From Devosia sp. 66-22 (lineage in GTDB: Bacteria > Pseudomonadota > Alphaproteobacteria > Rhizobiales > Devosiaceae): DNA of 64,000 nt. A model generated the notes under the pieces. It made no database searches and was not told the origin of the DNA. It saw only the letters and a program-made list of their open reading frames with translations. The translations under genes and the position numbers were made by a program. The DNA lies in contig MKUZ01000028.1 in the NCBI GenBank assembly GCA_001899065.1, positions 1-64,000 on the forward strand. Direction: 5' to 3'. Shown here piece by piece: positions 46,951 through 62,588 of this stretch. How positions within the stretch are numbered: the stretch's first letter is position 1; the number at the start of each line of letters is the position of its first letter.

Positions 46951-47170
46951 GCCTGTCGGCTTCTGTTCGGTGACTGTCTGCGAAATGGCTCCTTCTACGG
47001 TTCAGACCGGCAACCCGCACTAACTCAGGGTGTTGAAGTATCGCGCGCGATCGCCGTGATCCCCGCTGTGCGTACGGACTGGACCCACCTAATGGAAACT
47101 CTATTGCACTTTAAATGGAAAACGAGTTACTGTTTTGTCGTATAGGGTTTTCGTCACAGGGAGTACCTTC

Positions 47171-48064
47171 ATGAACATCGCCAAACTGACGTTGTCGGGC
47201 CTCGTCGGCGCCGCAACGATCGCCCTTCTTACGTCGAGCGTCTCGGCGCAGACGGTCGAGATCACGGCCAACATGCCGGCTACGGCGGACATGGTCAGCC
47301 ACCTGCCCGCGGCCATCAAGGAGCGTGGCACGCTCAACGTCGCCACCACCGACGGAAATGCGCCCTGGGTGTTCGTCGACGCCGCGACCGGTGAGGTCAA
47401 AGGCGTCGATGCCGACCTCGTCAACGAGGCGGCAAAGCGCCTGGGCCTCACTGTCAACTGGGAAGTGATCCAGTTCACTGCCGGAATCCCGGGCGTCGAG
47501 AGCGGTCGTTACGACTTCTATCTGTCGGCGATGGCCGACACCAAGAAGCGTGAGGAAGTGGTCAATTTCATCGCCTATTCGCAGGAAGGCTCGGGCGTCA
47601 TCGTGCCCAAGGGCAACCCCCTGAACATCAAGACGATGGAAGACCTATGCGGCAAGCGCGTGGCGATCGTGACCGGCTCGCTGTTCCCCGCCATCATCGA
47701 TGAGCTCAACAAGTCCTGCGCCACGCCGGTGCAGGTGTCCGAGACCGCCGATCAGACCGGTCCCTACCTCGCGGTCGCGAGCGGCCAGGCCGACGCCACG
47801 ATGAACACCTATGGCGTGTCGAACTACACGCTGCGCACCGCGACCGAGGGTATCCAGACCCAGCTCGAACTGTCGCCCGTGGCCCGCTTTGCGCCCGCCA
47901 ACCAGGGTATCGCCTTCAACAAGGGGCAGAGCGACCTGATGGCGGCTGTCGGCGGCGCCATGCAGTCCATGAAGGAAGATGGTAGTTATCTGGCCCTGAT
48001 GGACAAGTGGGAAGTCGGCGACGGCGCGGTCGAGAACTTCACGTTCAACGCTCCGCTGTTCTGA
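47171..48064 (+). CDS. Amino-acid-type ABC substrate-binding protein (family 3)
   Basis: A 297-residue periplasmic binding protein with signal peptide MNIAKLTLSGLVGAATIALL ending VSAQ. The mature protein has the family-3 layout: AIKERGTLNVATTDGNAPWV, GVDADLVNEAAKRLG, DFYLSAMADTKKREEVVNF and LCGKRVAIVTGS. Ligands of this family are polar amino acids, opines and related small molecules. GGGAG lies 9 nt before ATG 47171; the frame extends upstream. First gene of the operon that includes the PvcA-like protein. Confidence 0.92.
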   Translation: MNIAKLTLSGLVGAATIALLTSSVSAQTVEITANMPATADMVSHLPAAIKERGTLNVATTDGNAPWVFVDAATGEVKGVDADLVNEAAKRLGLTVNWEVIQFTAGIPGVESGRYDFYLSAMADTKKREEVVNFIAYSQEGSGVIVPKGNPLNIKTMEDLCGKRVAIVTGSLFPAIIDELNKSCATPVQVSETADQTGPYLAVASGQADATMNTYGVSNYTLRTATEGIQTQLELSPVARFAPANQGIAFNKGQSDLMAAVGGAMQSMKEDGSYLALMDKWEVGDGAVENFTFNAPLF

Positions 48065-48083: not shown

Positions 48084-48944
48084 ATGACGGCACACGGCCA
48101 CGAGCGGAAAGGGCTCCGGATTCACCGGCGCCCCGGCGGCAGGATTGCCAATGCCGCGCTGGCGGTTCTGGCGATCCTGGTGGTTGCCCTGATGGCGCAG
48201 ATCGTCATCGGAAGCGGCCGCATCCGCTGGTTCGTCATCGTCGAGGATTTCTTCTCGCCCGCCGTATTGAACGGGGTCGGCACGACGCTGCTGCTGACCG
48301 TCGTGTCGCTGGCCGGCTCGGCCGTGCTCGGCACGATCCTTGCCGCGATGCGCATCTCGCACAATCGCGTGCTGCAGGCCATTGCCTCGGCCTATGTGTG
48401 GTTCTTCCGCGGCACCCCGGTGCTCGTACAGGTCGTGTTCTGGTTCAATCTCGGCCTGTTCCTGCCCCAGCTCAACATCTTCGGGATGTCGATCTCGACC
48501 AATTCGCTGATCTCGCCGCTCACTGCCGCCCTGCTGGGTCTGCTGCTCAACGTCAGCGCCTTCATGTGCGAGGTGATCCGCGGCGGCCTGATCGCGGTCG
48601 ATCATGGGCAGACCGAGGCGGCGCTGTCGATCGGCATGACACCGGGCGGCGCGCTGCTGCGCATCGTGCTGCCGCAGGCGGTCCGCGTCATCATCCCGGC
48701 TGCCGGCAATCTGGCCATCGACCTGCTGAAGGCGACGTCGCTAGTCTATGTCATCGGCACGCGCGAAATCTTGGGCGCCACGCAGAGCATTGCGGCGCAG
48801 ACCTTCTACGTCATCGAGATGCTGATCATCGCCTCGATCTGGTACCTCATTCTCGTCACCATCGCCTCGTTCGGCCAGGCGCGGCTCGAGGCCTGGCTGG
48901 CGCGCTCCGTCGCCACCGCGGCGCGCCCGACCAATCAGGGATGA
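48084..48944 (+). CDS. Amino-acid-type ABC permease (HisMQ family)
   Basis: A 286-residue permease with five to six membrane segments and the coupling loop GQTEAALSIGMTPGGALLRIVLP. YVWFFRGTPVLVQVVFWF is the characteristic entry segment of HisMQ permeases. It is the only permease of this system, so it probably works as a homodimer. It overlaps the ATPase gene by 4 nt. Confidence 0.93.
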   Translation: MTAHGHERKGLRIHRRPGGRIANAALAVLAILVVALMAQIVIGSGRIRWFVIVEDFFSPAVLNGVGTTLLLTVVSLAGSAVLGTILAAMRISHNRVLQAIASAYVWFFRGTPVLVQVVFWFNLGLFLPQLNIFGMSISTNSLISPLTAALLGLLLNVSAFMCEVIRGGLIAVDHGQTEAALSIGMTPGGALLRIVLPQAVRVIIPAAGNLAIDLLKATSLVYVIGTREILGATQSIAAQTFYVIEMLIIASIWYLILVTIASFGQARLEAWLARSVATAARPTNQG

Positions 48945-49720
48945 GCGCCATGTCCAGCGACGACATCATCCACATGCTTGGCATGGCCAAGTCCTTCGGC
49001 GCCGTCGAGGTGCTGACCGGCATCGACATGAAGGTGCGCCGCGGTGAAGCTGCCTTCATCATCGGTCCCTCCGGCTCGGGTAAGAGCACCTTGCTGCGCT
49101 GCGTCAACGGCCTCGAGACCTATAGCGGCGGCGAGCTGTGGGTCGAAGACTATCTGGTCGGCGCCGAGAACAGCAACGGCAAGTGGTACGAGGCACGCAG
49201 CAAGGTGACCGCCGCGCGCCGGGCCGGCATCGGGATGGTGTTCCAGCGCTTCAATCTGTTCCCGAACATGACGGCGCTCGAAAACGTAACGGCCGGCCTA
49301 CGGCTGGTTCTCGGCCAGCCGCGCAGGCAGGCCGACGCGCGTGGCCGCGAGCTGCTCGATCGCGTCGGGCTGCTGCATCGCGCCGACGCCTATCCGGCCC
49401 AGCTTTCGGGCGGCCAGCAGCAGCGCATTGCCATCGCCCGCGCCATCGCCGCCAAACCCTCGATCATTCTGTTCGACGAGCCGACTTCGGCGCTCGACCC
49501 CGAGCTGGTTGGCGAGGTGCTTGAGGTGATGCGTGACCTCGCGCGCGACGGCATGACGATGCTCGTCGTCACCCACGAGATCGCCTTCGCCGAGGAGGTC
49601 GGCGACACCGTCCATTTCATCGACCGCGGGCGCGTGGCTGAATCGGGCAAGCCCGCTGACGTCATCCGCCATTCCTCCAACCCACGAACCGCCGAGTTTC
49701 TCGCGCGTATTCGCCAGTAG
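48941..49720 (+). CDS. Amino-acid-type ABC ATPase (GlnQ/HisP family)
   Basis: A 259-residue ATPase: Walker A GPSGSGKST, Q-loop FQRFNLFPNMTALENV, signature [16 protein letters not shown], Walker B IILFDEPTSALDP, switch His in VVTHEIAFAEEV. It completes the family-3 importer and ends 14 nt before the PvcA-like gene, which argues that the imported compound is linked to that protein's job. An insertion (AENSNGKWYEARSK) after the first beta region is slightly longer than usual. Confidence 0.94.
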   Translation: MSAMSSDDIIHMLGMAKSFGAVEVLTGIDMKVRRGEAAFIIGPSGSGKSTLLRCVNGLETYSGGELWVEDYLVGAENSNGKWYEARSKVTAARRAGIGMVFQRFNLFPNMTALENVTAGLRLVLGQPRRQADARGRELLDRVGLLHRADAYPAQLSGGQQQRIAIARAIAAKPSIILFDEPTSALDPELVGEVLEVMRDLARDGMTMLVVTHEIAFAEEVGDTVHFIDRGRVAESGKPADVIRHSSNPRTAEFLARIRQ

Positions 49721-49734
49721 CCCCCATTTGAGCC

Positions 49735-50841
49735 ATGTCTAGTCCGTACATTTATGTGAATGCCCCCCTGCCGCGGCGCTATGAGCCGGCCGTCGTCGAA
49801 AGACGCGCGCATCTGTCTCTTTCGGAAATGCGGAAGCTGGCGCGCCGCAACGATGTTGCGGTCGAGGCCGCGAGCGCGGGCAGCGCCGAAGAGCGCATCC
49901 TGTCGATCTTCGAGCATCCCGAGGTGATTTTCGGCAATCCCGGTTTCATCCCCGCCAATCGGGCGGCCTGGCTTGAGCGGATCGGTCACTTCACCAAAGC
50001 GGGCAAACCGATCCCCTTTGTGAGCATGGCTTTCCCCTACAAGGTGCCCAACCCGCTCAAGACCGAGCGGCTGGCGCCCGACATGGGCGAGGCGCTGATG
50101 CTGCGGCGCTTCGCGGCGGTGCTCGATGCTGTCGGCAGGGTATACGCGCCGGGCGGCGTTCTGACCATCCTCGAGGAGGGTATCCTCGGCCGCTGCCAGG
50201 GCGTGCCATCGGATCGGATCGCCGCCTATCGCGCCGGCATCGATACTGTCATGGCTGTAGCCGATGTCGACCCTGAGCGCGTGACGTTCCATTCGCTCGA
50301 CGACATGGTTTCGCGCATCCCCAGTTTCGAGGCGCGCTGGATCCACGAGCAAGAGCGGCTGCGCGAGCTCTGGCAGCAGGGCGATGCGGCGGTGCGCGAA
50401 GCCTATGCCACCACGACCGCAGCATCGCGCACCTCGGTGCCCACCATCGACTACGAACCGGACGTGCTGGCAGCCGCCTACGACCCCGAGCAGACGGATT
50501 CGGCGCTGCGCTATCCGCGCGACTTCATCGACAAGGTCTCGCACCGGCAGTTCTTCGCCTATCGCGCGCTGCTCTCGTTACGCGACAGCACCGGCTATCT
50601 GCACGATCTGCGTCCGCATGCCCTCAAGCTCACTGTTTCGCCCAAGCCGGAGAATCTGGCGGTGCTGCCGGTGAACAGATGGGCGCAGGTGCTGCCCTAT
50701 CATGGCGTGCCGGTGGTTCTTGCCGATGGCCGGTGGGATATCGTCTATAGCGGTGCGCTGGGCACGCTGGGGCCGCTCGAGGCGCTGGTACTTGAGGCGG
50801 ACGGCGATCCGGCTCCCATTGCCTATCGGGTGCTCGGATGA
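49735..50841 (+). CDS. PvcA/Dit1 (isonitrile synthase) family protein
   Basis: A 368-residue protein that I assign to the Dit1/PvcA family, whose characterised members use the amine of Tyr or Trp and ribulose-5-phosphate to make an isonitrile. The family core is visible: IPFVSMAFPYKVPNPLKT (residues 93-110), then DMGEALMLRRFAAVLDAVGRV and GVLTILEEGIL, and a C-terminal RPHALKLTVSPKP and LPYHGVPVVLADG. It is slightly longer than PvcA. No PvcB-type Fe/2-oxoglutarate oxygenase is present; instead the gene is coupled to an amino-acid-type importer and overlaps a ROK kinase gene by 4 nt. Family membership is by recalled pattern only; whether it makes an isonitrile or acts on another amine/ketose-phosphate adduct is open. 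Confidence 0.72.
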   Translation: MSSPYIYVNAPLPRRYEPAVVERRAHLSLSEMRKLARRNDVAVEAASAGSAEERILSIFEHPEVIFGNPGFIPANRAAWLERIGHFTKAGKPIPFVSMAFPYKVPNPLKTERLAPDMGEALMLRRFAAVLDAVGRVYAPGGVLTILEEGILGRCQGVPSDRIAAYRAGIDTVMAVADVDPERVTFHSLDDMVSRIPSFEARWIHEQERLRELWQQGDAAVREAYATTTAASRTSVPTIDYEPDVLAAAYDPEQTDSALRYPRDFIDKVSHRQFFAYRALLSLRDSTGYLHDLRPHALKLTVSPKPENLAVLPVNRWAQVLPYHGVPVVLADGRWDIVYSGALGTLGPLEALVLEADGDPAPIAYRVLG

Positions 50842-51710
50842 CGACCAGCCTCGGCGTCGATGTCGGCGGGACCAAGATCCAGTTCTGTACCGTTGACGCG
50901 GATTTCGTCGCCCGGCCGCTGAGTCGCACGCCGACGGCGCTGATGCGCCGCGGCACCAGAAAGTTCGCCGACGACTTGGCGGAGCTGATCCGCGCGACTT
51001 GTCCTCCCGGGGTCGCGCGGATCGGCGTCACGCTCAACGGCGTGCTCGATGGCGGCAACGTGGTCTACAGCTCGCTGATGGGCGGCAATGTCGATTTTCC
51101 GCTCGACAGCTTCCTGCGCGACCGGCTCGGCCTCGACGTGACCGTCGACGACGACCTCCACGCCATGGGCATTGCCGAGGCGCATCTGGGCATGGGGCGG
51201 GGGCTGCGCAGCTTCGCGCTGCTCAATCTGGGCACGGGTATCGGCGTCGGTGTCTATGACGACGGCCGGATCGTCCGCGGCACCTATGCGGCCGGGCTGA
51301 TTTCCGAGCAACTGGTCTATGTCGAAGAACTGGGCGAATATCGCTCGCTGGACCGTACCGTGTGCGGGCGGGGGCTGCGCGAGCTCTATCTGCAATTGGG
51401 CGGCGAGGCCGTCGACGGGATCACGATCTTCGCGCGGGCGCGGGCCGGCGAGGCCGTCGCGACGCGGGTGGTCGAACTCTTCAGCCGCTATCTGGGCGAG
51501 GCCATGCAAATGATCTCGCGCTTCTATCACCCTGGCCGCATCGTCATCAACGGCTCGATCAAGCGGGCCGCAGCCGACTATCTGGCACGCGCCGAGGCGG
51601 TCTATCGCGCCGGCCTGCAACGGGCGTTTCAAACAGAAATCGTTGTTTCCCAACTGGAGCACGCCGCCGAACTTGGTACCGTTGTGGCGAGCCGCGGGGG
51701 ACAAGCATGA
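50838..51710 (+). CDS. ROK-family sugar kinase
   Basis: A 290-residue kinase without a DNA-binding domain. ATP-binding begins LGVDVGGTKIQ; the catalytic base region is VDDDLHAMGIAEAHLG; LLNLGTGIGVGV follows. The usual ROK zinc motif (CXCGXXGC) is absent, only one Cys (RTVCGRG) being near that place, so this is a zinc-free ROK protein. It overlaps the PvcA-like gene and the GntR gene by 4 nt each. The substrate is probably a sugar or amino sugar delivered by this operon's importer. Confidence 0.88.
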   Translation: MTTSLGVDVGGTKIQFCTVDADFVARPLSRTPTALMRRGTRKFADDLAELIRATCPPGVARIGVTLNGVLDGGNVVYSSLMGGNVDFPLDSFLRDRLGLDVTVDDDLHAMGIAEAHLGMGRGLRSFALLNLGTGIGVGVYDDGRIVRGTYAAGLISEQLVYVEELGEYRSLDRTVCGRGLRELYLQLGGEAVDGITIFARARAGEAVATRVVELFSRYLGEAMQMISRFYHPGRIVINGSIKRAAADYLARAEAVYRAGLQRAFQTEIVVSQLEHAAELGTVVASRGGQA

Positions 51711-52531
51711 GCACACAGGCAGGACGGCGACGCGCGACCACCGTCGAGAAGAACGCGCGCATCTTCGCGCCGATCAAGGCACATCGCACTTTCGAGACGG
51801 TGATCGAGCGGATCATCGAGGCCATCGACTCGCAGGGTCTGAGCGAAGGCGACCGCCTGCCCAATGAATCGGAGATGGCGCGCCTGCTTGAAGTATCGCG
51901 CCCGACCCTGCGCCAGGCGTTGCGGGTTCTTGAGACTTCGGGGGTCCTCAAGATTAGGGCAGGACAGGCCGGCGGAGTGTTCGTGGCCAGCGAAATGGTG
52001 CCCGTAGAAGTGCTGGGCCAGAACATCGCGCTCGAGGTCCATCATGTGGGCGAACTCATCGCGACGCGTCGCATCATCGAGCCGATCGTCTACCACCTCG
52101 CGGCGGAGAATGCCTCGGAGGAAGAGCTCGATCGCATCGCGGACGCCATCGAGCTGATGCGCCGTCATTTGGGCGAGCCCAACATGATCTCGCGAGCGGA
52201 CGGGCTATATCACCGGCGCATCGCCCATGCGGCAGGCAACCAGATCCTGCTGCGGACAATGACCGGAATCTATCGCGATCTCAATCCGCTGCGGGGTGCA
52301 CTCAGCAACGATCGCGAGCACGGCCTGCACATGATCGACGTGCACAGCCGCCAGCTCGAAGCGATCCGCGCCCGCGACCATGAGGGGCTCGAAAGGATGC
52401 TTCAGGAGACGTTCGTGGATCTAGAAGAGGAGTTCAAAGTGACCTCCCGGTTCTCGGTGCGGTGGGCACCGCGCGAGGACAACGTATCTGCCAAGGCACC
52501 GCCCGAGCGCAAGAGAAGGGCGCGCGCCTAG
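51707..52531 (+). CDS. GntR-family regulator (FadR/FCD type)
   Basis: A 274-residue repressor: winged helix FETVIERIIEAIDSQGLSEG, RLPNESEMARLLEVSRPTLR and LETSGVLKIRAGQAGGVFV, then an all-helical FCD effector domain with the metal-binding type His positions (LYHRRIAHAAGN, DVHSRQLEAI). The tail is basic. It overlaps the kinase gene by 4 nt and is probably the local regulator of the operon; its operator was not recognised. Confidence 0.92.
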   Translation: MSTQAGRRRATTVEKNARIFAPIKAHRTFETVIERIIEAIDSQGLSEGDRLPNESEMARLLEVSRPTLRQALRVLETSGVLKIRAGQAGGVFVASEMVPVEVLGQNIALEVHHVGELIATRRIIEPIVYHLAAENASEEELDRIADAIELMRRHLGEPNMISRADGLYHRRIAHAAGNQILLRTMTGIYRDLNPLRGALSNDREHGLHMIDVHSRQLEAIRARDHEGLERMLQETFVDLEEEFKVTSRFSVRWAPREDNVSAKAPPERKRRARA

Positions 52532-52584
52532 TTCAACCAGCCACCGGCATGGGCCCGACGAGCCCGCGCCACCGGGGGTCGCGA

Positions 52585-52608
52585 TGCCGCAGGAAGTCTC
52601 CTGCGGCA
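52585..52608 (+). terminator. 10-bp hairpin after the GntR gene
   Basis: TGCCGCAGGA and TCCTGCGGCA flank the loop AGTC, 53 nt after the GntR stop and 59 nt before the next start. No U-tract follows, so it may be a partial terminator or a processing signal. Confidence 0.45.
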
Positions 52609-52667
52609 CGGGACTGCTCGCGACAATTTCCCGCCTGCCTGTGCAGCTTGATAGAAGGATGTTCGAA

Positions 52668-53432
52668 ATGGAACGCAGAGTCTACGACCAGCTCGAAGTG
52701 CTGATCGCCCCCACCGACAAGGAGCTCGGCGAAAAGGCCGCCGAGGATCTGGCCAGCCTCGTCAAGGCGGAGCTCGCCAAGAAGGATGAGATCTGCATCA
52801 TCATGGCGCTCGGCGCCGCGCAGGACGCCTTCTACGCCGCCCTGCGCGCCCGCACCGACATCGAGTGGTCGAAGATCACCGTCCTTCACGTCGACACCTA
52901 TATGGGCGTCGCCAATGACCGGGTCGAAAGCGGCGCCTCGCGCATGCGGCGGCACCTGCTCGACCACGTCAAGCCGAAGGCGTTCTTCCCCATGCAGGGC
53001 GATTTCGAGCCGGTAGAGGAAGAGCTGGCGCGCTACACCAAGCTCTATAACGAACTGCAGCCGGTGCTTTGCGTCGTCGGCATCGGAAATAGCGGCCATC
53101 TCGCCTTCAACGATCCGCCGGCCGATTTCGACACCAGGGATATCATCCGCGTCGTCTTCCTCGACGAGGTCACGCGCGATCAGGTCAAGCGCGCCGGCAT
53201 CTTCAAGAATCTCGAAGACGTGCCGCATTATGGCCTGTCTTTGACCATGCACGCCCTGCTCAAGCCGGGCCGTGTGCTGGCGCTGGTTCACGATCTCGAC
53301 AAGGCGGGAACGATCAAAAAGGTTCTCGAGGGCCCGGTAAGCTTCATGTGCCCGGCTTCCCTGCTGCAGAAGACGCCGCAGGCAACCCTCTATCTCAATA
53401 AGGACGCGGCCTCTCAACTGGCGTCGATCTAG
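52668..53432 (+). CDS. NagB-like sugar-phosphate deaminase/isomerase
   Basis: A 254-residue protein of the glucosamine-6-phosphate deaminase/6-phosphogluconolactonase fold. Compared with E. coli NagB, Asp72 is kept (Asp76, HVDTYMG) and His143 is kept (His144), but Asp141 is replaced by Ser142 (GIGNSGHLAFNDP) and Glu148 by Asp149. The general acid/base set is thus altered, pointing to a different substrate or to an isomerase/deglycase role. ATG 52668 has AAGGA 8 nt upstream; another ATG lies 9 nt earlier. It follows the ROK-GntR operon with a hairpin between, suggesting it processes the kinase product. Confidence 0.82.
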   Translation: MERRVYDQLEVLIAPTDKELGEKAAEDLASLVKAELAKKDEICIIMALGAAQDAFYAALRARTDIEWSKITVLHVDTYMGVANDRVESGASRMRRHLLDHVKPKAFFPMQGDFEPVEEELARYTKLYNELQPVLCVVGIGNSGHLAFNDPPADFDTRDIIRVVFLDEVTRDQVKRAGIFKNLEDVPHYGLSLTMHALLKPGRVLALVHDLDKAGTIKKVLEGPVSFMCPASLLQKTPQATLYLNKDAASQLASI

Positions 53433-53655: not shown

Positions 53656-53684
53656 CCAATTAGTCGCTTAGCCAAATTAATTGG
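53656..53684. promoter_or_regulatory. AT-rich dyad, candidate ROK-repressor operator
   Basis: CCAATTA-N15-TAATTGG. The right arm lies in GCCAAATTAATTGGC, itself a small dyad that shares GCCAAAT-AATT with the site before the ROK repressor and TIM-barrel genes at 62589-62615. Confidence 0.45.
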
Positions 53685-53735
53685 CAAAGACCAAGGAGGC
53701 CGGCCAGATGGAAGCCGCATTCCTGCCGATTGCGC

Positions 53736-53784
53736 TTGACGTCATTGCTCTTCCGTATTTAATTGGATGGGACCAGAAATTAAT
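53736..53784 (+). promoter_or_regulatory. Sigma-70-type promoter with overlapping operator
   Basis: TTGACG (53736-53741), 16 nt, TTTAAT (53758-53763). The -10 element lies in an inverted repeat TTAATT-N13-AATTAA (53759-53783) whose spacer contains ATGGGAC, as does the site at 62589-62615. Start of the transporter operon at 53822 lies about 50 nt downstream, so this also rules out a longer reading of that gene. Confidence 0.55.
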
Positions 53785-53821
53785 CGCAACGATATTTCGG
53801 TCAAAGGGAAGGGAGAATCGC

Positions 53822-55576
53822 ATGCTCAAGGGACGGTCGTCTTTTCTGAAGTGCTCGTTACTCGCTGCGGCGTCGCTGTTCGTGATCGGCTCGGCCGTCG
53901 CGCAGGACATTGCCGATGTGCCGCGAAACGAGACACTCAAGGTGGAGAACATCTTCGGGCGCGTCGCGCTGCCCGAGAACTTCAACCCGTTCATCCCAGG
54001 CAACAACCTGGTGAACGGCTACTGGCAGGTCGCCGCGGAATCGCTGTTCTATCTCAACTATGAGAGCGGCGAGCTCATCCCCTGGCTGGCCGAGAGCTAT
54101 TCATTCAACGACGACAACACCGAGCTGACGCTCAAGATACGCCCTGGGGTCAAATGGTCGGACGGCGTCGATTTCACGGCCGATGACGTGACCTTCACGC
54201 TCCAGATGCTGATGGCCAATCCCGAGCTGCGGTATCATTCGGAGCTTCAGGCCTCGGTGGACTCGGTCGCCACCAGCGATCCGCAGACCGTAACCATCAA
54301 GCTCAAGGCGCCCAATCCGCGGTTCGTGATGGACGTCTTCTCGGTGCGCGTCTGGGAAACGCTGATCATTGCGCCCAAGCACATCTTCGAGGGCCAGGAC
54401 CCGGTCAAGTTCTCGAACTACGATCCAGCCAAGGGTTGGCCTGTGACCACCGGCGCCTACAAGCTCGTGCGCTCGACCCAGACCGAGACCGTCTGGGATC
54501 GTCGCGACGATTGGTGGGGCGCAACGACCGGCTTCCGTCCGCTGCCGGCGCCCAAGCGGGCGATCTGGACCGGCGCGGGCACCGAGGAAACGCGCGCGGT
54601 GATGGGCGTCAACAACGACCTCGACGCCATCTACACCGTCGGCAAGAGCAACTTCGAGGTCATGCGGGCGCGCAATCCCAACATCATCGCCTGGACCAAC
54701 GATCTGCCCTATGGCTACGCTGATCCGTGTCCGCGCGATCTGCAGCTCAATACCCAGCTCGCGCCCTTCGACAACAAGGACGTGCGCTGGGCAATCGATC
54801 ACGCCATCAATCGCGATGTGCTGGTACAGATCGCCTATGAAGGGGCGACGATCCCGCAGGCGTTCGACATGCCGGCCTATTCCGGCCTGCAGCCCTTCTT
54901 CGATCGCAACAAGGCGCTTTCCGACCGCATCCTCGATTTCGATCTGGGCAAGACCGACGAACTGATGGCCAAGGCGGGCTACAGCAAGGATGGCGAGGGC
55001 ATGTGGGTCGACAGCGCCGGCAAGCGCATCGAGCTGGGCATCATCACCGCCGCCGGCGAAGTCGACAAGGAAAAGATGATGCCCATCATCGTCGACCAGC
55101 TTCGCACGGCCGGCTTCGATGCCACCAGCCAGACGCTCGAATGGTCGGTGTTCTCGGATGCGCTGGCCCGCGGCACCTCGGCGGCCTATATCCACAACCT
55201 GTGTGCCAGCGTTGTGGACCCCGTCGGGGCGCTCTCGGCCTTCCACAGCCGCTTCTCGGCTGCGCCCGGTGAAGCCGCAACGGGCGGCAAGCAGGGCTCC
55301 CGCTTCGCCAACGCCGAATATGATGCGCTTGTGGACAAGCTGAGCGTGTTGCCCACCAGCGACCCGCAATTCGCCGACCTCGCCGACCAGGCCCTGGCCC
55401 TGTGGGCGGACGAGCTGCCCGTCGTGCCGCTGGTGCAGGCGATGTTCATCGTGCCCTACAATACGACGTACTGGACCAATTGGCCGACGGCCGACAACAA
55501 CTACTTCTTCCCGCTGGCACACTGGTGGGTAAGCGGAAGCATTCTGGCGCAGAACATTCAGCCTGCGCAGCAGTAA
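53822..55576 (+). CDS. Peptide/oligosaccharide-type ABC substrate-binding protein (family 5)
   Basis: A 584-residue DppA/OppA-fold binding protein with signal peptide ending GSAVAQD. Family features: [20 protein letters not shown], then the second lobe with [12 protein letters not shown] and [23 protein letters not shown] 53822 has GGGAG 6 nt upstream and follows a promoter. The neighbours are sugar-phosphate-isomerase-like proteins, so the ligand may be an oligosaccharide or glycoside rather than a peptide; this family includes both kinds. Confidence 0.92.
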
Positions 55577-55583
55577 TCTTCCA

Positions 55584-55624
55584 CCGGCACGCATTGGCGA
55601 TCCTCCCGGTCCGGTGCGTGCCGG
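55584..55624 (+). other. 10-bp hairpin after the binding-protein gene
   Basis: CCGGCACGCA and TGCGTGCCGG flank a 21-nt loop, 7 nt after the stop and 27 nt before the first permease. Same arrangement as in the other importer operons. Confidence 0.6.
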
Positions 55625-55651
55625 ACTTGTGTCCAACCGAGGTGTAGAGTC

Positions 55652-56662
55652 ATGGATTTGAGGTATCTGCTCAAGCGACTCGTGTCCTTCGTCGTGACCA
55701 TCCTCGTCAGTGCGACGTTGATGTTCATCCTGACCCGGCTCACTCCCAACGATCCGATCCAGGCGCTGCTCGGGCGCATGGCTGCGACCGGCAGCAACAT
55801 CGAGGGCGGTGCGGAGCTGGTCGCGATGTATCGCGAACGCTTCGGCCTCGATCAGCCGATACTGGTTCAGTATCTCAGCTATATGTCGAACCTCATTCTA
55901 CGTGGTGACTTCGGCTACTCGCTCGCCTACTTCCCGGCGCCCGTATTGCCCGTTATCGCGGGAGCGATCCCCTGGACGCTGGGTCTGTTCCTGGTTTCGA
56001 CGATCTTCGCTTTCGTCGCCGGCAATCTGCTGGGCGCGCTGGCGACGTGGCCATCCACACCAAGGCCGCTGCGCTATGTGATCTACGCCCTGGCGCCTGT
56101 CTCGGCCATTCCCTACTACATCCTCGCGCTTCTGCTGCTCTACCTGCTGGCCGTGATCTTTCCTGTGTTTCCGATCGGCGGTGCGCGCACGGCCGGCGGC
56201 GACCAGTCGCTTGGTCTCGCCAATATCCTCGACATCGTGCACCACGCCGTGTTGCCCGGTCTCTCCATTGTCCTGGCCCTGCTCGGCTTCTGGGTGCTCT
56301 CAATGCGCGGCGCCATGGCCCTGGTGAAGGGCGAGAGCTATCTCATGTATGCTCGGGCAAGGGGCCTGCGCGACCGCCGCATCTTCATGCGTTATGCCGT
56401 CCGAAACGCCAGCCTGCCGCAGGTGACCGCTCTCGCGCTCGACCTGGGCAAGGTCGTTTCAGGCCAGGTGCTCGTCGAAATCATCTTCAGCTATCCGGGC
56501 GTCGGCTACGTGCTCTACAACGCGCTTCGTACGGCGGACTATTTCGTCATCCAGGGCGTCGTGATGTTCGTCATCATCTCGGTGGCGCTCGCAACGCTCA
56601 TTCTCGATCTCGTCTATCCGTTGTTGGATCCGCGGATCAGCTACCGGGATGGACAGGCATGA
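55652..56662 (+). CDS. ABC permease, DppB type
   Basis: A 336-residue permease. The N-terminus RYLLKRLVSFVVTILVSATL, the periplasmic region RERFGLDQPILVQYLSYM, and the coupling segment YLMYARARGLRDRRIFMRYA followed by EIIFSYPGVGYVLYNAL are typical of DppB. It overlaps the DppC-type gene by 4 nt. Confidence 0.94.
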   Translation: MDLRYLLKRLVSFVVTILVSATLMFILTRLTPNDPIQALLGRMAATGSNIEGGAELVAMYRERFGLDQPILVQYLSYMSNLILRGDFGYSLAYFPAPVLPVIAGAIPWTLGLFLVSTIFAFVAGNLLGALATWPSTPRPLRYVIYALAPVSAIPYYILALLLLYLLAVIFPVFPIGGARTAGGDQSLGLANILDIVHHAVLPGLSIVLALLGFWVLSMRGAMALVKGESYLMYARARGLRDRRIFMRYAVRNASLPQVTALALDLGKVVSGQVLVEIIFSYPGVGYVLYNALRTADYFVIQGVVMFVIISVALATLILDLVYPLLDPRISYRDGQA

Positions 56663-57519
56663 TCGGCAATCTCGCATTCCGTGTCTGGCGCGCCCTGACC
56701 TATTCCGTGCCGCTGACCATTGGCTGCCTGCTGCTGGCGGCGGTGGTGATCCCCAGCGTGCTGAGCCCGCTGTTCTACGATCTCGGCCTCGCCAGGATCG
56801 CCTCGAGCGGCCTCAACCTGCCGCCCTCGTGGGAGCATCCGCTGGGCACGCAGTCCGAGGGGAGGGACGTTCTGGCGCTGATCCTCGCCGGAACGCCGGC
56901 GACCCTGATTATCGGCCTCATCGGCGGCGGGATCGGCGTGCTGGTCGGCACGTTCCTCGGCATGGTCTCCGGCTATTTCGGCGGCCGTCTCGACACCGCG
57001 ATCCGCAATACCGTCGATGTCGGGATGACCATCCCACCTTTCGCTATCCTCATCATGATTGCCGCCTCTTTCAAGGTCGTGACGTTGCCCCTGATGGGCG
57101 CGGCGGTCGCCATCTCGGCCTGGATGTATCCGACGCGCGTCATCCGCTCGCAGGTTCTTTCCATCCGGACGAGAGGCTATGTCCGCATGGCGAAGCTGTC
57201 GGGCATCGGCGACCTGCGGATCATTTTCGGCGAGCTGCTGCCCAATCTCATCCCGCTGATAACGGCTGGCGCCGTCAACGCCATCGCGGTGTCGATCCTC
57301 GCGTCCATCGGCCTCGAGGTGCTCGGCCTGGGCGGGCAGAACCTCACGCTCGGCACGACCATCTACTTCGCGATCTACTATGCCTCGATGTGGCGCGGCC
57401 TGTGGTGGTGGTGGCTGCCGCCGGTGCTGGTGCTGGTTGCGATCTTTCTCGGCCTGTTCCTTGTCAGCACGGCTCTCGACGAAGTGGCAAATCCCAAATT
57501 GCGGAGGGCATCCTCGTGA
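56659..57519 (+). CDS. ABC permease, DppC type
   Basis: A 286-residue permease with HPLGTQSEGRDVLALILAGT, the DppC signature, then FLGMVSGYFGGRLDTAIRN and the coupling segment YVRMAKLSGIGDLRIIFGEL. It overlaps both neighbours by 4 nt (ATGA at its start, GTGA at its end). Confidence 0.94.
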   Translation: MIGNLAFRVWRALTYSVPLTIGCLLLAAVVIPSVLSPLFYDLGLARIASSGLNLPPSWEHPLGTQSEGRDVLALILAGTPATLIIGLIGGGIGVLVGTFLGMVSGYFGGRLDTAIRNTVDVGMTIPPFAILIMIAASFKVVTLPLMGAAVAISAWMYPTRVIRSQVLSIRTRGYVRMAKLSGIGDLRIIFGELLPNLIPLITAGAVNAIAVSILASIGLEVLGLGGQNLTLGTTIYFAIYYASMWRGLWWWWLPPVLVLVAIFLGLFLVSTALDEVANPKLRRASS

Positions 57520-58472
57520 GCGCCGCCCAATTGCATGCCGCTACCGCAGTCGCGCCGCAGGCGGGTGATGTGCTGAGCATCGAGAATCTGCGCGTGAGCT
57601 ATGGCAGTCGATTCAATGCGGTGCCGGCCGTACGCAACGCGACCTTCTCGGTGGCGCGCGACGAGGTCTTTGGCCTCGTCGGCGAATCCGGCTCGGGCAA
57701 GAGCACGCTGTCGATGGCGATCCTGCGCCTCCTGCCTGCTCAGGCGCATTGCGAAGCAGATCGCATGCGGCTGGGGGACACCGACCTGATGGCGGCAGGC
57801 CCTGCCGCTCTGCGGCAGTTGCGCTGGACCCGCCTGTCCTACATTCCGCAGGGTTCGATGGGCGTGCTCAATCCGGTGATGCGGGTGCGCGAGCAGTTTC
57901 TGGACACTATCGCCGACCATACGCAAGGCGCCCAGCGTCGCGAGATCGAGGGGCGGATCGAGACCGTCCTGGCGGGCGTCAATCTGCGGCCGGCGGTACT
58001 CGACCAGTTTCCGCACGAGCTCAGCGGCGGCATGAAGCAGCGCGTCTGCATTGCGCTCGCCATCCTGCTCGAGCCCGAGCTGATCATCGCCGACGAGCCC
58101 ACCAGCGCCCTCGATGTCGTGTCGCAGCGGCAGGTGCTGGAGACGCTGTCCTCGGCACGTCGGCGTATAGGCGCTTCGATGATCATGATCGGCCACGACA
58201 TGGCGTTACAGGCGCAACTGGCCGACCGGATCGGCATCATGTTCGCGGGCCGCTTCGTCGAGATCGGACCGACTCGGGCCATTTTCGAAGCACCGCGGCA
58301 TCCCTACACGCAGCGGCTGATCGGCGCCATTCCGTCGATCCGCAGGCGGCAGGACATCGGGGAGCTGGCGCGCCGCGGCCTCGAACACGCCGACGGCGCC
58401 ACAGCCAGCGCGCATCCCGACCTGCCGCTGCGCGAAGTCTCTGCCGGCCACTTCGCGGCAATCGAGCTCTGA
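57516..58472 (+). CDS. ABC ATPase, DppD type
   Basis: A 318-residue ATPase: Walker A GESGSGKST, signature LSGGMKQRVCIALAI, Walker B LIIADEPTSALDV, switch His in IGHDMALQ. The start is GTG 57516 overlapping the permease stop, with GGAGGG before it. The C-terminal extension holds the HPYTQRLIGAIPSI motif of oligopeptide-type ATPases, but the cysteine cluster seen in many DppD proteins is missing. Confidence 0.94.
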   Translation: MSAAQLHAATAVAPQAGDVLSIENLRVSYGSRFNAVPAVRNATFSVARDEVFGLVGESGSGKSTLSMAILRLLPAQAHCEADRMRLGDTDLMAAGPAALRQLRWTRLSYIPQGSMGVLNPVMRVREQFLDTIADHTQGAQRREIEGRIETVLAGVNLRPAVLDQFPHELSGGMKQRVCIALAILLEPELIIADEPTSALDVVSQRQVLETLSSARRRIGASMIMIGHDMALQAQLADRIGIMFAGRFVEIGPTRAIFEAPRHPYTQRLIGAIPSIRRRQDIGELARRGLEHADGATASAHPDLPLREVSAGHFAAIEL

Positions 58473-58473
58473 C

Positions 58474-59460
58474 ATGACCAACGATCAAGAACGTAAGCTG
58501 CTCGACGCCCGGAACTTGACGCGCCGCTTCGCCCAGAAGGGCCGGCGTGAGACCGTGGCGGCCGTCGACGACGTGTCCTTCAGCCTGCCGGGCGAGCGCG
58601 CGATCATCCTTGCTGTCGCGGGCGAAAGCGGCAGCGGCAAGTCGACGCTGGCATCGATGCTGCTCGGCTTTCTGCCGCCGAGCGAGGGTACCATAGCTTT
58701 CTCGGGAATGGACGTCAGCCATCTGACGCGGACACAGAGAGCCCAATACCGTCACATGGTCCAGGGCATCTTCCAGGACCCGTTCGACGCCTTCAACCCA
58801 TTCTATCCGGTCGAACACGCGCTGCATCTTGCGATCGAGAAATTCTCGCTCGCCAAGAACCGGCAGGAAGCGGCGTCGCTCATCGACAAGAACTTGCGCG
58901 CGGTCCGGCTCAAACCCGAGGCGACGCTCGGCCGTTATCCGCACCAGCTCAGCGGCGGCCAGTTGCAGCGCGTCATGATTGCGCGTGCGCTGATGATCCA
59001 TCCGCGCCTGATCATCGCCGACGAGCCGGTGTCGATGATCGACGCGTCCCTTCGCGCCATCGTTCTTGAGATCATGGCGTCGTTACGCGATGAGCACGGC
59101 ATCTCGCAGGTCTACATCACGCACGACCTTTCATCGGCGCTGCAGATCAGCGACCAGATCCTGGTGCTCTACCGCGGTACCGTGGTCGAGAGCGGCAACG
59201 CCGCAGCAGTGATCGAGACGCCCAAGCATCCCTACACGCAGCTCCTCATCAGCTCCATTCCCGTACCCGACCCGGACGAGAAATGGGGAGCCGAGCTCGA
59301 GGAGACCCAGCCGGCGGCGCTCGAGCCGACCCAAACCGAGTTCTGCAAATTCATCGATCGTTGCCCGCATCGCATGCCGATGTGCGCGCAGCGTCGTCCC
59401 GCCGCAATTCCGGTTGGTCCGGATCAGCTCGCCGCCTGCTTCCTCTACGAGAAATCGTAG
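58474..59460 (+). CDS. ABC ATPase, DppF type
   Basis: A 328-residue ATPase with Walker A GESGSGKST, FQDPFDAFNPF, signature LSGGQLQRVMIARAL, Walker B LIIADEPVSMID (Met in place of the usual Leu) and switch His in ITHDLSSALQ. The C-terminus keeps the iron-sulfur-type cysteines of this family (CKFIDRCPHRMPMC and a later Cys). It starts 1 nt after the DppD-type gene stop. Confidence 0.94.
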   Translation: MTNDQERKLLDARNLTRRFAQKGRRETVAAVDDVSFSLPGERAIILAVAGESGSGKSTLASMLLGFLPPSEGTIAFSGMDVSHLTRTQRAQYRHMVQGIFQDPFDAFNPFYPVEHALHLAIEKFSLAKNRQEAASLIDKNLRAVRLKPEATLGRYPHQLSGGQLQRVMIARALMIHPRLIIADEPVSMIDASLRAIVLEIMASLRDEHGISQVYITHDLSSALQISDQILVLYRGTVVESGNAAAVIETPKHPYTQLLISSIPVPDPDEKWGAELEETQPAALEPTQTEFCKFIDRCPHRMPMCAQRRPAAIPVGPDQLAACFLYEKS

Positions 59461-59499
59461 GGCGCAGCGTCGACCCAATAAGAGTCAATGGAGACTAGG

Positions 59500-60327
59500 A
59501 TGGAAATTGGCGTAACCGCGTGGTCACTGCAGATACCGGAGGGCGAGTTCGAGCGGATCCTGCAAACGATCCGCGAGAAACTCAATCTCGATATCGTGCA
59601 GATCGGCGCATGGGGCTTCATCAAGCTCGACGCAGCCGAGCGCGCCCGCCGCATCGAAGCGATCCGCAAGTGGAAGATCCGCGTGCCTTCGACCACCGTG
59701 GCTTTCGCCGGCGAGAGCTATGCGACGCATGAGACGGCGATCAAGACCGTCGGTTTCTACGATCCCGCCTTCGTCGAAGAGCGCTTCACCCATATCACCG
59801 ACATGGCGGAGATGACCGTCGATCTCGATGTGCATCTGCTCACCACCCATATCGGCCACATCCCGGCCAGCAGCAAGGATCCGATGTATGCCCATATGCG
59901 CGACGTCACGCGGCGCGTCTGCGATATGCTGGGCGAGCGCAATATCGATCTCGGTGCCGAGGTCGGCGGGCTCGAGAGCGCGCGGACGCTGTTCGATTTC
60001 ATTGGCGATGTCGGCCGCAGCAACCTGAAGGTGAATTTCGATCCGGCCAACGCGCTGCGCGCCGGCGGATGGGATCCGATTGCCGAGCTCGATGTGCTCA
60101 AATCGCTGGTGGTGGGCGTCCACCTCAAGGACGCCCTGCCATTGCAGAAGTCCGGCGTCTGGGGCGACGAGGTGGCGCTGGGCCAGGGGCAGATCGGCGT
60201 CGAGCGCTTTGTCGCCAAGCTCAAGCAGATTGGCTTTGCCGGCCCCCTCATCATCGAGCGTGAAGGTGGTCCCGATCCGATCGGCGACATCAATCGCGGC
60301 GCGGAAATCCTGCGTCGCCTCATCTAG
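59500..60327 (+). CDS. Sugar-phosphate isomerase/epimerase family TIM barrel (first)
   Basis: A 275-residue xylose-isomerase-like AP-endonuclease-2-fold protein. LLTTHIGHIPASS, DLGAEVGG, KVNFDPANALRAGGWDP and GVHLKDA, LIIEREGG carry the expected metal-binding His, Glu and Asp ligands at the C-terminal ends of strands. ATG 59500 (GGAG 6 nt upstream) is preferred to the ATG 12 nt earlier. It follows the importer by 39 nt and probably acts on the imported sugar or a keto-derivative. Exact reaction unknown. Confidence 0.88.
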   Translation: MEIGVTAWSLQIPEGEFERILQTIREKLNLDIVQIGAWGFIKLDAAERARRIEAIRKWKIRVPSTTVAFAGESYATHETAIKTVGFYDPAFVEERFTHITDMAEMTVDLDVHLLTTHIGHIPASSKDPMYAHMRDVTRRVCDMLGERNIDLGAEVGGLESARTLFDFIGDVGRSNLKVNFDPANALRAGGWDPIAELDVLKSLVVGVHLKDALPLQKSGVWGDEVALGQGQIGVERFVAKLKQIGFAGPLIIEREGGPDPIGDINRGAEILRRLI

Positions 60328-61249: not shown

Positions 61250-62488
61250 CTATGCTTCCGCGCCCTCCTGGCCCGCCCGCTCGAGGATTGCATCGAGCGA
61301 CCATGCGGCGGCCCCACGAACGGCCGCTTCTCGGCCCATTCCCGAGAAGCGCAACGAAAGCTCGGCCCAGTGCTCGGCATTTACCCGCGCATTGAGCTCT
61401 CTCTCTATGGGGCCCTTCAGCCATTCGGCGACATGCGTGAAATAACCACCTAGGACGACGGCCTCCATGTCGAGAAGATTGTAGAGATTGGAGATGCCGA
61501 CGCCGAGCGCCGCGCCGACGGTATCGAGCGCCGCAAGTGCACGCGCATCGCCGGCGCTTGCCCGCCGGGCCACTTCCCTGCCCGTCCAGTCCGGATCGCT
61601 GCGGGCCAGGCGGCCATCGGTGGGCAGTCCGGCCAGCTCCAGCAATGCGAGTTCGCCCGCCAGCGTTTGCAGCGACCCTTGGGCGCCCCAACTGCGCGGT
61701 GGTACGGAACGATCGATGATGGTATGCCCAAGTTCGCCGGCAAATCCATGCGAGCCCCGGTAGATCTTGCGATCCAGAACCAGGCCGCTGCCGATACCGA
61801 TGCCGCCCGAGACGTAGGCGAAGCTGCCGATATTCCGCGCGATGCCCATTGTCATCTCGGCATAGGAGGCGAGGCGCGCCTCATTGTCGATGCGCAACGG
61901 CACATCGGGGAGGCGCTCGCGCCATATCGACAGCACAGGAACGTTGTTCCATCCGATGTTCGGCGCCTGCAACAGCACGTCGCCGCGCGCGACGAGGCCA
62001 GGCACGGCGATAGTGCAGACCTTCGCTATCTTGGCATTGCGAAACGCCTTCAGCGCCTCTGCCGTGAGGTCCGCGGCCTGTGCCACGACCTCGGCAGGAA
62101 CCTTCTCGCGATTGTCCTGGCTGATGAACGCGCGATAGCGCACCGTACCGACCAGATCCAGCGCCAGGACGCCGACGCCGTCGTCGGCAATCTCGACGCC
62201 CAGCGCCGCGCCGCCGTCCGGATTGAGCTCGAGGCTGCGCCCGGGCCGGCCGATGGAACCATCCTGCTCGACGCCCACCTCAACGATGAGGCCCCACTCG
62301 ATAAGGTCTCCCACCAGGCTCGAAACGGTCGAGGGGTTGAGGCCGGTCTCGGTCGAAACCCGGGCGCGCGATCGGCGTCCCCCCTTGGCGATATTGCCCA
62401 GCACAAGCCCCAGATTGTGACGGCGGACCGTCCGTTGATCGGCGGGCGCGACCATCGGGCTTTGGCGGGATTTGTCCGTACGAACCAT
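61250..62488 (-). CDS. ROK-family transcriptional repressor
   Basis: About 412 residues: N-terminal winged helix (NLGLVLGNIAKGGRRSRARV, TETGLNPSTVSSLVGDLIEW) fused to a ROK sugar-binding domain with GVEIADDGVGVLALDLVG and SGGIGIGSGLVL. GELGHTIID is kept, but the following zinc cysteines are replaced (RSVPPRSWGAQGS), so it lacks the usual zinc site. The start could also be one of the ATGs up to 62533; ATG 62488 gives a natural N-terminus but no clear ribosome site. Divergent from the third TIM-barrel gene with an AT-rich dyad between, and that dyad resembles sites before the family-5 importer, so it probably represses both units. Confidence 0.88.
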   Translation of the reverse strand: MVRTDKSRQSPMVAPADQRTVRRHNLGLVLGNIAKGGRRSRARVSTETGLNPSTVSSLVGDLIEWGLIVEVGVEQDGSIGRPGRSLELNPDGGAALGVEIADDGVGVLALDLVGTVRYRAFISQDNREKVPAEVVAQAADLTAEALKAFRNAKIAKVCTIAVPGLVARGDVLLQAPNIGWNNVPVLSIWRERLPDVPLRIDNEARLASYAEMTMGIARNIGSFAYVSGGIGIGSGLVLDRKIYRGSHGFAGELGHTIIDRSVPPRSWGAQGSLQTLAGELALLELAGLPTDGRLARSDPDWTGREVARRASAGDARALAALDTVGAALGVGISNLYNLLDMEAVVLGGYFTHVAEWLKGPIERELNARVNAEHWAELSLRFSGMGREAAVRGAAAWSLDAILERAGQEGAEA

Positions 62489-62588
62489 AATATCGCGTTT
62501 CATCATTGATTTTGCGAAACAGGCAAAAACCATAACGTTTGATAGGCCATCCCGCCAGACCCGATTGACAAATATCCTCCGCGCGACT

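Follow-up and report, generated by a model that had tools for sequence, protein, structure and literature searches.

A PvcA-fold enzyme paired with a ROK kinase in Devosia: a candidate cassette for the uptake and breakdown of amine-sugar conjugates

Characterized isonitrile synthases are biosynthetic enzymes; what, then, is a protein with their fold doing between an importer and a sugar kinase? The question is posed by a 64-kb stretch (the window) of the 4.36-Mb genome of Devosia sp. 66-22 (contig MKUZ01000028.1), in which seven (+)-strand genes encode, in order, a solute-binding protein (SBP), a permease, an ATPase, a PvcA-like protein, a ROK kinase, a GntR regulator and a NagB-like protein. 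On re-read frames, the tightly coupled operon proposed in a preliminary description of this DNA stands: 14 nt separate the ATPase and PvcA-like genes, and the PvcA-like/ROK and ROK/GntR junctions are both overlaps (−4). Our tentative answer is a self-contained operon for taking up and breaking down a C2–N-linked amine-sugar conjugate, probably induced by its substrate and arranged around an old pair of PvcA-fold enzyme and ROK kinase.

The PvcA-like enzyme and its altered motifs

The PvcA-like protein (49735..50841, +) matches PF05141 with 60.6 bits (cutoff 26.4), its best stretch being residues 83–200 against positions 1–119 of the 273-position profile, and aligns with the PvcA structure 3e59 over residues 79–333 (E 1.3e-13). 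No second PF05141 match was found in the host genome. An AlphaFold2 model (19 family members as input; mean pLDDT 92.6, pTM 0.90) retrieved exclusively chains of 3e59, 9dh4 and 9dhm (PvcA/PIsnA) at ranks 1–8 of a Foldseek search of the Protein Data Bank (PDB; E 1.7e-14 to 3.3e-13, TMq 0.54–0.61); the ninth match had an E value of 1.6e-3, leaving solely PvcA/PIsnA chains below 1e-3. The PvcA/Dit1-like identity first assigned from the letters is thus upheld by profile and by predicted structure. The score against NF045653, the NCBIfam equivalog model for isonitrile synthases, is 33 bits, for a cutoff of 600.

What this protein shares with PvcA/IsnA isonitrile synthases, besides fold and PF05141 match, became apparent from a comparison of 22 members of its clade with four isonitrile-synthase-type proteins, two of them with an adjacent PvcB. 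Ten positions (F100, K103, K109, D116, E119, G140, G149, Y165, P321 and H323) are common to 22/22 and 4/4. At five others, all 22 clade members differ from all four comparison proteins, with Gly replaced by R112, Asp by E148, His by S302, Gln by K/R304 and Trp by Y322. As judged from the alignment, the replaced residues include the conserved Asp of the SDG motif and the His of the SIHPQ motif, which are E148 and S302 throughout the clade and D and H in the four; three further actinobacterial isonitrile-synthase-type proteins also retain both motifs. The additional basic residues (Arg and Lys/Arg) might accommodate a larger ligand that bears a phosphate.

A further difference from PvcA/IsnA, alongside the ROK partner and the importer operon, is that no PvcB-like sequence was detected in the window or in 17 related loci (two PvcB queries, E ≤ 1e-3), as the preliminary description had stated for the window; the same search detected both PvcB-bearing control loci (L091 and L119). 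The seven cassette genes include neither a P450 nor an exporter. PvcB is not universal near isonitrile-synthase-type genes, being present at three of the six loci closest to PvcA (L090, L091 and L119; not L092, L118 or L120).

These observations bear on a rival explanation, in which an isonitrile or N-formyl compound, secreted or intracellular, is made from an imported amino acid, with the ROK kinase supplying a ketose phosphate and phosphatases stripping the phosphate. The PvcA/PIsnA fold speaks for it, as do two candidate-phylum loci (see below) that unite PvcA-like, ROK and Cof-type phosphatase genes. Yeast Dit1, a member of the same Pfam family, serves spore-wall synthesis together with the P450 Dit2, and is not known to have a kinase partner. 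A synthetic route is poorly matched, however, by an importer and a NagB or SIS protein, by the Ser in place of the SIHPQ His in 22/22 clade members, and by a cassette in which no PvcB, P450 or exporter was found. Dit1 is reported not to be an isonitrile synthase and to form formyl-tyrosine (PMC7345447), a product that this explanation would accommodate. On balance, synthesis of this kind appears quite unlikely.

Pairing with a ROK kinase across distant loci

The ROK kinase (50838..51710, +; PF00480, 95.8 bits) has DxGGTK, D106 and NxGxGxG positions that are invariant in five aligned sequences. Of 19 loci of the clade, 18 have a ROK gene immediately 3′ of the PvcA-like gene. A search with 14 ROK queries, which recover the ROKs of three control loci, detected none at 14 other PF05141 loci, a set that includes short contigs, one fragment and two below-cutoff or weak matches. 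The zinc motif CxCGxxGC, described as missing from the window kinase, is missing from all 18 linked ROKs and present in 15 of 27 background ROKs; hence it is not universal in the ROK family.

Relatives were sought in one genome per species (84,980 species) with two peptide patterns, a survey that sees only pattern-fitting relatives and that yielded 15 loci. Ten are close relatives (60–75% identity), from Mesorhizobium, Kaistia, two Martelella, a Mesorhizobium metagenome-assembled genome (MAG), an Enterobacterales MAG, Devosia elaeis, Nakamurella, Rhizobium smilacinae and a Microbacteriaceae MAG. All seven cassette genes occur in identical order in 10/10 of these, so their association exceeds chance and is not a peculiarity of the window genome. 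Beyond the cassette, the only genes common to three or more of the ABC-type loci compared are those of ABC (ATP-binding cassette) transporters; families recurring in just two loci come mostly from the related L018 and L019 (neighboring genes were picked by a simple length and GC3 rule, antisense frames included). The D. elaeis cassette (L023, 12844–14385) contains two tandem NagB-like genes.

Seven remote loci, approximately 30% identical, comprise the other five from the pattern scan and two plasmid matches (Agrobacterium sp. and Microvirga lotononidis), and in 7/7 a ROK gene directly follows the PvcA-like gene. The plasmid search gave nine matches, of which these two joined the clade and seven from Streptomyces/Embleya were left out; also left out were a weak match in genome G781 and 5 of 33 places of unlinked ROKs. 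Five remote loci form a TRAP (tripartite ATP-independent periplasmic) type, with a TRAP importer ahead of the PvcA-like gene, a DctP gene and a divergent AraC gene in 5/5, a SIS gene in 4/5 and, in 4/5, a second PvcA-like gene after the ROK. A NagB-like gene is present in 11/11 ABC-type loci (window included), and no SIS gene was found in the seven of these 11 that were searched, the window not being among the seven; NagB or SIS is thus present at 15 of the 16 ABC- and TRAP-type loci. At the Microvirga locus (L034, 13331–18031), PvcA-ROK-PvcA is followed by zwf-pgl-edd-eda-type genes, by family glucose-6-phosphate dehydrogenase, phosphogluconolactonase family, phosphogluconate dehydratase family and 2-keto-3-deoxy-6-phosphogluconate aldolase, that is, an Entner–Doudoroff entry. 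On the Agrobacterium plasmid p_JBx_073812 (L033, 1–18000), the TRAP-PvcA-ROK set is accompanied by two SIS proteins, an asparaginase, a BadF-type ATPase and an amino acid ABC importer, neighbors that look like a second amine-sugar catabolic locus.

Two candidate-phylum loci (L028, 7110–11918; L031, 20–3970) encode, besides the pair, Cof-type phosphatases and another PvcA-like protein that has diverged strongly; of these additional proteins, only that of L031 matches PF05141, below cutoff. An M20 deacylase gene directly follows the pair at L028, and the 1.1-Mb genome to which this locus belongs (G892) gave no ROK match other than that of the pair. Three other loci (L015, L016 and L017) belong to a separate PF05141-like lineage from the taxonomic order of the window genome; their proteins are 21–22% identical to the window protein, and neither ROK nor PvcB was detected in 16 kb.

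Because ROK, NagB and GntR are the families of amino sugar operons, the cassette might also be a known N-acetylglucosamine (GlcNAc)-type pathway to which a PvcA-like protein has been added in a minor or non-catalytic role. This reading is very improbable: the PvcA-ROK pair persists while importer, regulator and isomerase are exchanged, and 22/22 clade members keep all ten positions that they have in common with isonitrile-synthase-type proteins. The host genome, moreover, has a separate NagA match above cutoff, and the NagA matches listed are on other contigs, which makes an ordinary GlcNAc route through this operon unlikely.

The two partners appear to have similar histories. The 22 clade proteins fall on one side of a branch from seven other PF05141 proteins (support 96/91) in a tree from which L036 and two candidate-phylum paralogues were omitted for their very long branches; when the three very long rows are added, the two paralogues join the clade (85/91). 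The 18 linked ROKs likewise make up a single clade, apart from 27 ROKs taken from three genomes (100/100; L087 was omitted as too short). Single clades and the same three groups in both trees (ABC, TRAP and candidate phyla) make the pair look old and co-inherited.

In all, the kinase-paired association spans Pseudomonadota, Actinomycetota and candidate-phylum bacteria, at low frequency. In the family of the window genome, 3 of 136 genomes match the PvcA-like protein at E ≤ 1e-5: the window genome itself, D. elaeis (L023, same cassette) and Devosia crocina (L032, TRAP type). The 18 other genomes of the genus in this sample gave no PvcA-like match at that threshold. The order sample contains 7 matching genomes among 397, four of them of the ABC type, and in 386 Actinomycetota genomes the Nakamurella copy was matched along with just three proteins of the isonitrile-synthase type. 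Such a rare and patchy distribution would fit horizontal spread of the cassette.

Importer, isomerase and the candidate substrate

The importer consists of a family-3 SBP (47171..48064, +; PF00497 (SBP_bac_3), 103.3 bits), an ABC permease of the polar amino acid type (48084..48944, +; PF00528, 61.2 bits; TIGR01726, 74.7 bits, above cutoff) and a GlnQ/EhuA-like ATPase (48941..49720, +; PF00005, 114.3 bits; GlnQ model, 296.4 bits, below the cutoff of 379). For the SBP, ATG 47171 is favored over the TTG at 47135 in the open reading frame (ORF) list, given the better-placed purine-rich stretch ahead of the ATG. Its carboxylate-clamp Arg127 is kept in 11/11 sequences, and the Asp for the alpha-amine is replaced by Thr213 in 11/11. 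In amino acid SBPs, the Arg binds the carboxylate and the Asp the ammonium group; retention of the one and loss of the other would fit a ligand with a free carboxylate and a substituted amine. The relatives of this SBP in the PDB include a deoxyfructosyl-amino acid SBP (5l9o/5lom), at E ~2e-11 and far below the top.

The NagB-like protein (PF01182 (Glucosamine_iso), 62.2 bits; TIGR00502, 109.7 bits, below the cutoff of 236.9) probably starts at ATG 52668 and ends at 53432 (+). The other frames agree with the preliminary description; its start for this gene, the ORF-list ATG 52584, is disfavored by alignment with four relatives. The changed catalytic residues that it reported are real in part: in E. 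coli numbering, E148 is D and the GGTP loop reads GAAQ or GASQ in 12/12 sequences from 11 loci, whereas D72 and H143 are kept in all 12, and the replacement of D141 by S has a counterpart in Bacillus subtilis NagB (2bkv), likewise without Asp there. For the four SIS proteins scanned, which come from three TRAP loci, the best-scoring models are GlmS or NagB-II, with GlmD in addition for one of them; no score reaches its cutoff. NagB and NagB-II have unrelated folds and catalyze the same glucosamine-6-phosphate deaminase reaction, and NagB and the GlmS/NagB-II-type SIS proteins act on 2-amino sugar phosphates, that is, at a C2–N bond.

Regulation may be specific to the operon. Comparison of the regions upstream of the loci revealed a 36-bp element (47094..47129, +), probably the operator or promoter of the operon, which lies 41 nt ahead of the SBP start. 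Eight of the 11 ABC-type loci, the window among them, share it; in these eight, 12 or 13 of the 13 fixed bases of CTATTGCnnTTTAAA are matched upstream of the SBP gene. With at most one mismatch, eight of nine genomes contain exactly one site, at the cassette. At three mismatches two more sites appear, and a reversed control pattern gives two matches. An element present once per genome, at the cassette, suggests that the operon has its own dedicated switch, for which the FCD-type GntR regulator (51707..52531, +; PF00392, 51.8 bits; PF07729, 72 bits) is the candidate protein. FCD-type operator motifs (TnGTn1-5ACnA, TGGT/ACCA, TTGT/ACAA, GGTATA and others) gave no site common to the loci, and a sigma-70 promoter scan gave 1 site against 1.2 expected. 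With the NagB-like start at 52668, the gap after the GntR gene is 136 nt and contains an inverted repeat with 10-bp arms (52585..52608, +). As the corresponding gap of other loci contains unrelated inverted repeats whose arms measure 5 to 11 bp, with no sequence conservation of the hairpin between loci, this feature is at most suggestive.

Taking the pairing, the co-inheritance, the exchange of importer and isomerase, the altered positions and the single operator-like site as read from the sequences, we infer substrate, reaction, order of steps and regulation by the GntR protein as follows. A carboxylate-bearing amine-sugar conjugate would be imported by the family-3 ABC importer (by TRAP in the sister type), and the ROK kinase would phosphorylate its sugar. 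The PvcA-fold enzyme would then act on the phosphorylated conjugate at the nitrogen-bearing carbon, by the same imine chemistry between amine and ketose phosphate that isonitrile synthases employ. The 2-amino sugar phosphate so formed, or the corresponding imine, would be converted by the NagB-like enzyme or a SIS protein to a ketose 6-phosphate, which would enter glycolysis or the Entner–Doudoroff route, and the GntR/FCD protein would switch the cassette through the one operator.

The most likely substrate class, by analogy with the enzyme families, is a C2–N-linked conjugate: a Heyns product, in which glucose carries an amino acid at C2, or a different N-substituted glucosamine. The ribulose 5-phosphate carbon used by PvcA/IsnA is C2, and a phosphorylated Heyns product would likewise be an amino acid N-bound to C2 of a sugar phosphate. 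On this view all three enzymes (kinase, PvcA-fold enzyme and NagB/GlmS-type isomerase) would share one C2–N sugar phosphate, which makes C2–N conjugates the best single guess, ahead of Amadori (C1–N) compounds. Known PvcA/IsnA enzymes are reported to couple the alpha-nitrogen of Tyr or Trp to a carbon of ribulose 5-phosphate (PMC7949033).

Amadori-type catabolism would have the PvcA-fold deglycase in place of FrlB, the ROK kinase in place of FrlD, and NagB or SIS isomerizing the freed sugar phosphate. FrlB is itself a SIS protein, which would render an additional SIS/NagB step redundant, and FrlB and FrlD belong to families other than the PvcA fold and ROK. The frl operons of B. subtilis and E. 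coli, which handle Amadori compounds, have no PvcA-fold enzyme, and the window cassette has instead a NagB fold and a ROK kinase, with neither the SIS-fold deglycase nor the dedicated fructosamine kinase of frl-type operons. The fit of NagB- and GlmS-type proteins to C2–N bonds also makes an Amadori compound seem the less well matched substrate. In its favor are the deoxyfructosyl-amino acid SBP among the relatives of the window SBP, distant as it is, and a shared logic of importer, C6 kinase and deglycating enzyme: frl operons use a C6 kinase and then a deglycase to release glucose 6-phosphate and free amine, under the repressor FrlR (PMC12632257). We regard this alternative as unlikely.

Another rival would place the PvcA-fold enzyme in the position of NanA, as a lyase cleaving a C–C bond of a sialic-acid-like or other keto-acid amino sugar, with ROK corresponding to NanK and GntR to NanR. 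The GntR regulator does score best against NanR among NCBIfam models (96.4 bits, below the cutoff of 260) and the ROK weakly against NanK (55.9 bits, cutoff 450), third after glucokinase and BglK models that are also below cutoff. Sialic acid operons include TRAP importers and NagB, and retro-aldol steps are thought to be part of isonitrile synthase chemistry. The conserved seven, however, hold no further enzyme gene for NanE or NagA, and family-3 SBPs are not known to bind sialic acid. More generally, nag and nan operons (GlcNAc and sialic acid) resemble the cassette in combining a ROK kinase, a NagB-type enzyme, a GntR regulator and an ABC or TRAP importer; they differ in that the conserved seven lack NagA, NanA and NanE and have a PvcA-fold enzyme instead, that no cassette protein is NagA-like, and that the ROK, GntR and NagB proteins all score below equivalog cutoffs (NagB 109.7 of 236.9 bits). 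The lyase reading is therefore also improbable, marginally more so than isonitrile synthesis.

A kinase-coupled catabolic use of the PvcA fold, as first suggested in the preliminary description, is thus the better-supported reading, given the importer genes, the adjacent ROK in 18/19 loci, NagB or SIS in 15/16, the zwf-pgl-edd-eda genes at one locus, the lack of a detected PvcB and the altered synthase motifs; the Amadori compounds named there as a model seem to fit less well than C2–N conjugates. Several observations weigh against it. Loss of E148 and of the GGTP loop means that the NagB-like protein may not be a deaminase; the SIS of L034 scores under the Pfam SIS cutoff and the D. crocina TRAP locus (L032) has none. 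The two candidate-phylum loci have no importer or NagB/SIS beside the pair (L031 being an 8-kb contig), and their Cof phosphatases and M20 deacylase could equally mean synthesis. The nineteenth clade-like member (G963; L055, 7534–8664, −), from a candidate phylum, was the sole new one that a search of 239 candidate-phylum genomes brought to light. It carries a TGA within its frame, and the 16 kb read contain no ROK; this interrupted copy may be a decayed gene, a sequencing error or a case of recoding. The deepest order also conflicts between trees, with the candidate phyla joining TRAP for PvcA (88/84) and TRAP joining ABC for ROK (90/70). Lastly, the C2–N linkage is an analogy drawn from the enzyme families, and the ligand and product of the cassette are putative.

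Surroundings and implications

The Pfam family calls for PF05141, ROK, GntR, FCD, Glucosamine_iso and SBP_bac_3 all exceed their cutoffs, and defence-system models gave no match to the PvcA-like, ROK or NagB-like proteins. After the cassette, the window contains a family-5 SBP, Dpp-type permeases and ATPases and then a xylose-isomerase-like TIM barrel protein (53681–60327), which are outside the conserved cassette, and another ROK-family protein about 8 kb downstream (61250–62533, −; 136.6 bits) that is not in the PvcA-linked ROK clade.

Although the fold is known, its pairing with a ROK kinase and its apparent catabolic role seem new; neither a PvcA-like/ROK kinase pairing nor a Heyns catabolic pathway or enzyme was reported in the literature searched, subscription journals being largely outside its reach. 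It is possible, if doubtful, that the kinase-paired clade embodies a new activity, phosphosugar-dependent C–N (or C–C) cleavage on the isonitrile synthase fold, within an undescribed catabolic pathway for C2–N conjugates shared by Pseudomonadota, Actinomycetota and candidate phyla. With its changes of His to Ser, Asp to Glu and Gly to Arg, the clade would also serve as a ready-made contrast for learning how binding and cleavage are apportioned in isonitrile synthases. At least one clade member, that on the Agrobacterium plasmid, is annotated as an ‘L-tyrosine/L-tryptophan isonitrile synthase family protein’; if the proposal is true, automatic annotation of this kind misleads, the fold has a second biochemical role, and soil- and plant-associated bacteria, together with reduced candidate-phylum genomes, would possess an overlooked route for the degradation of sugar-amines.

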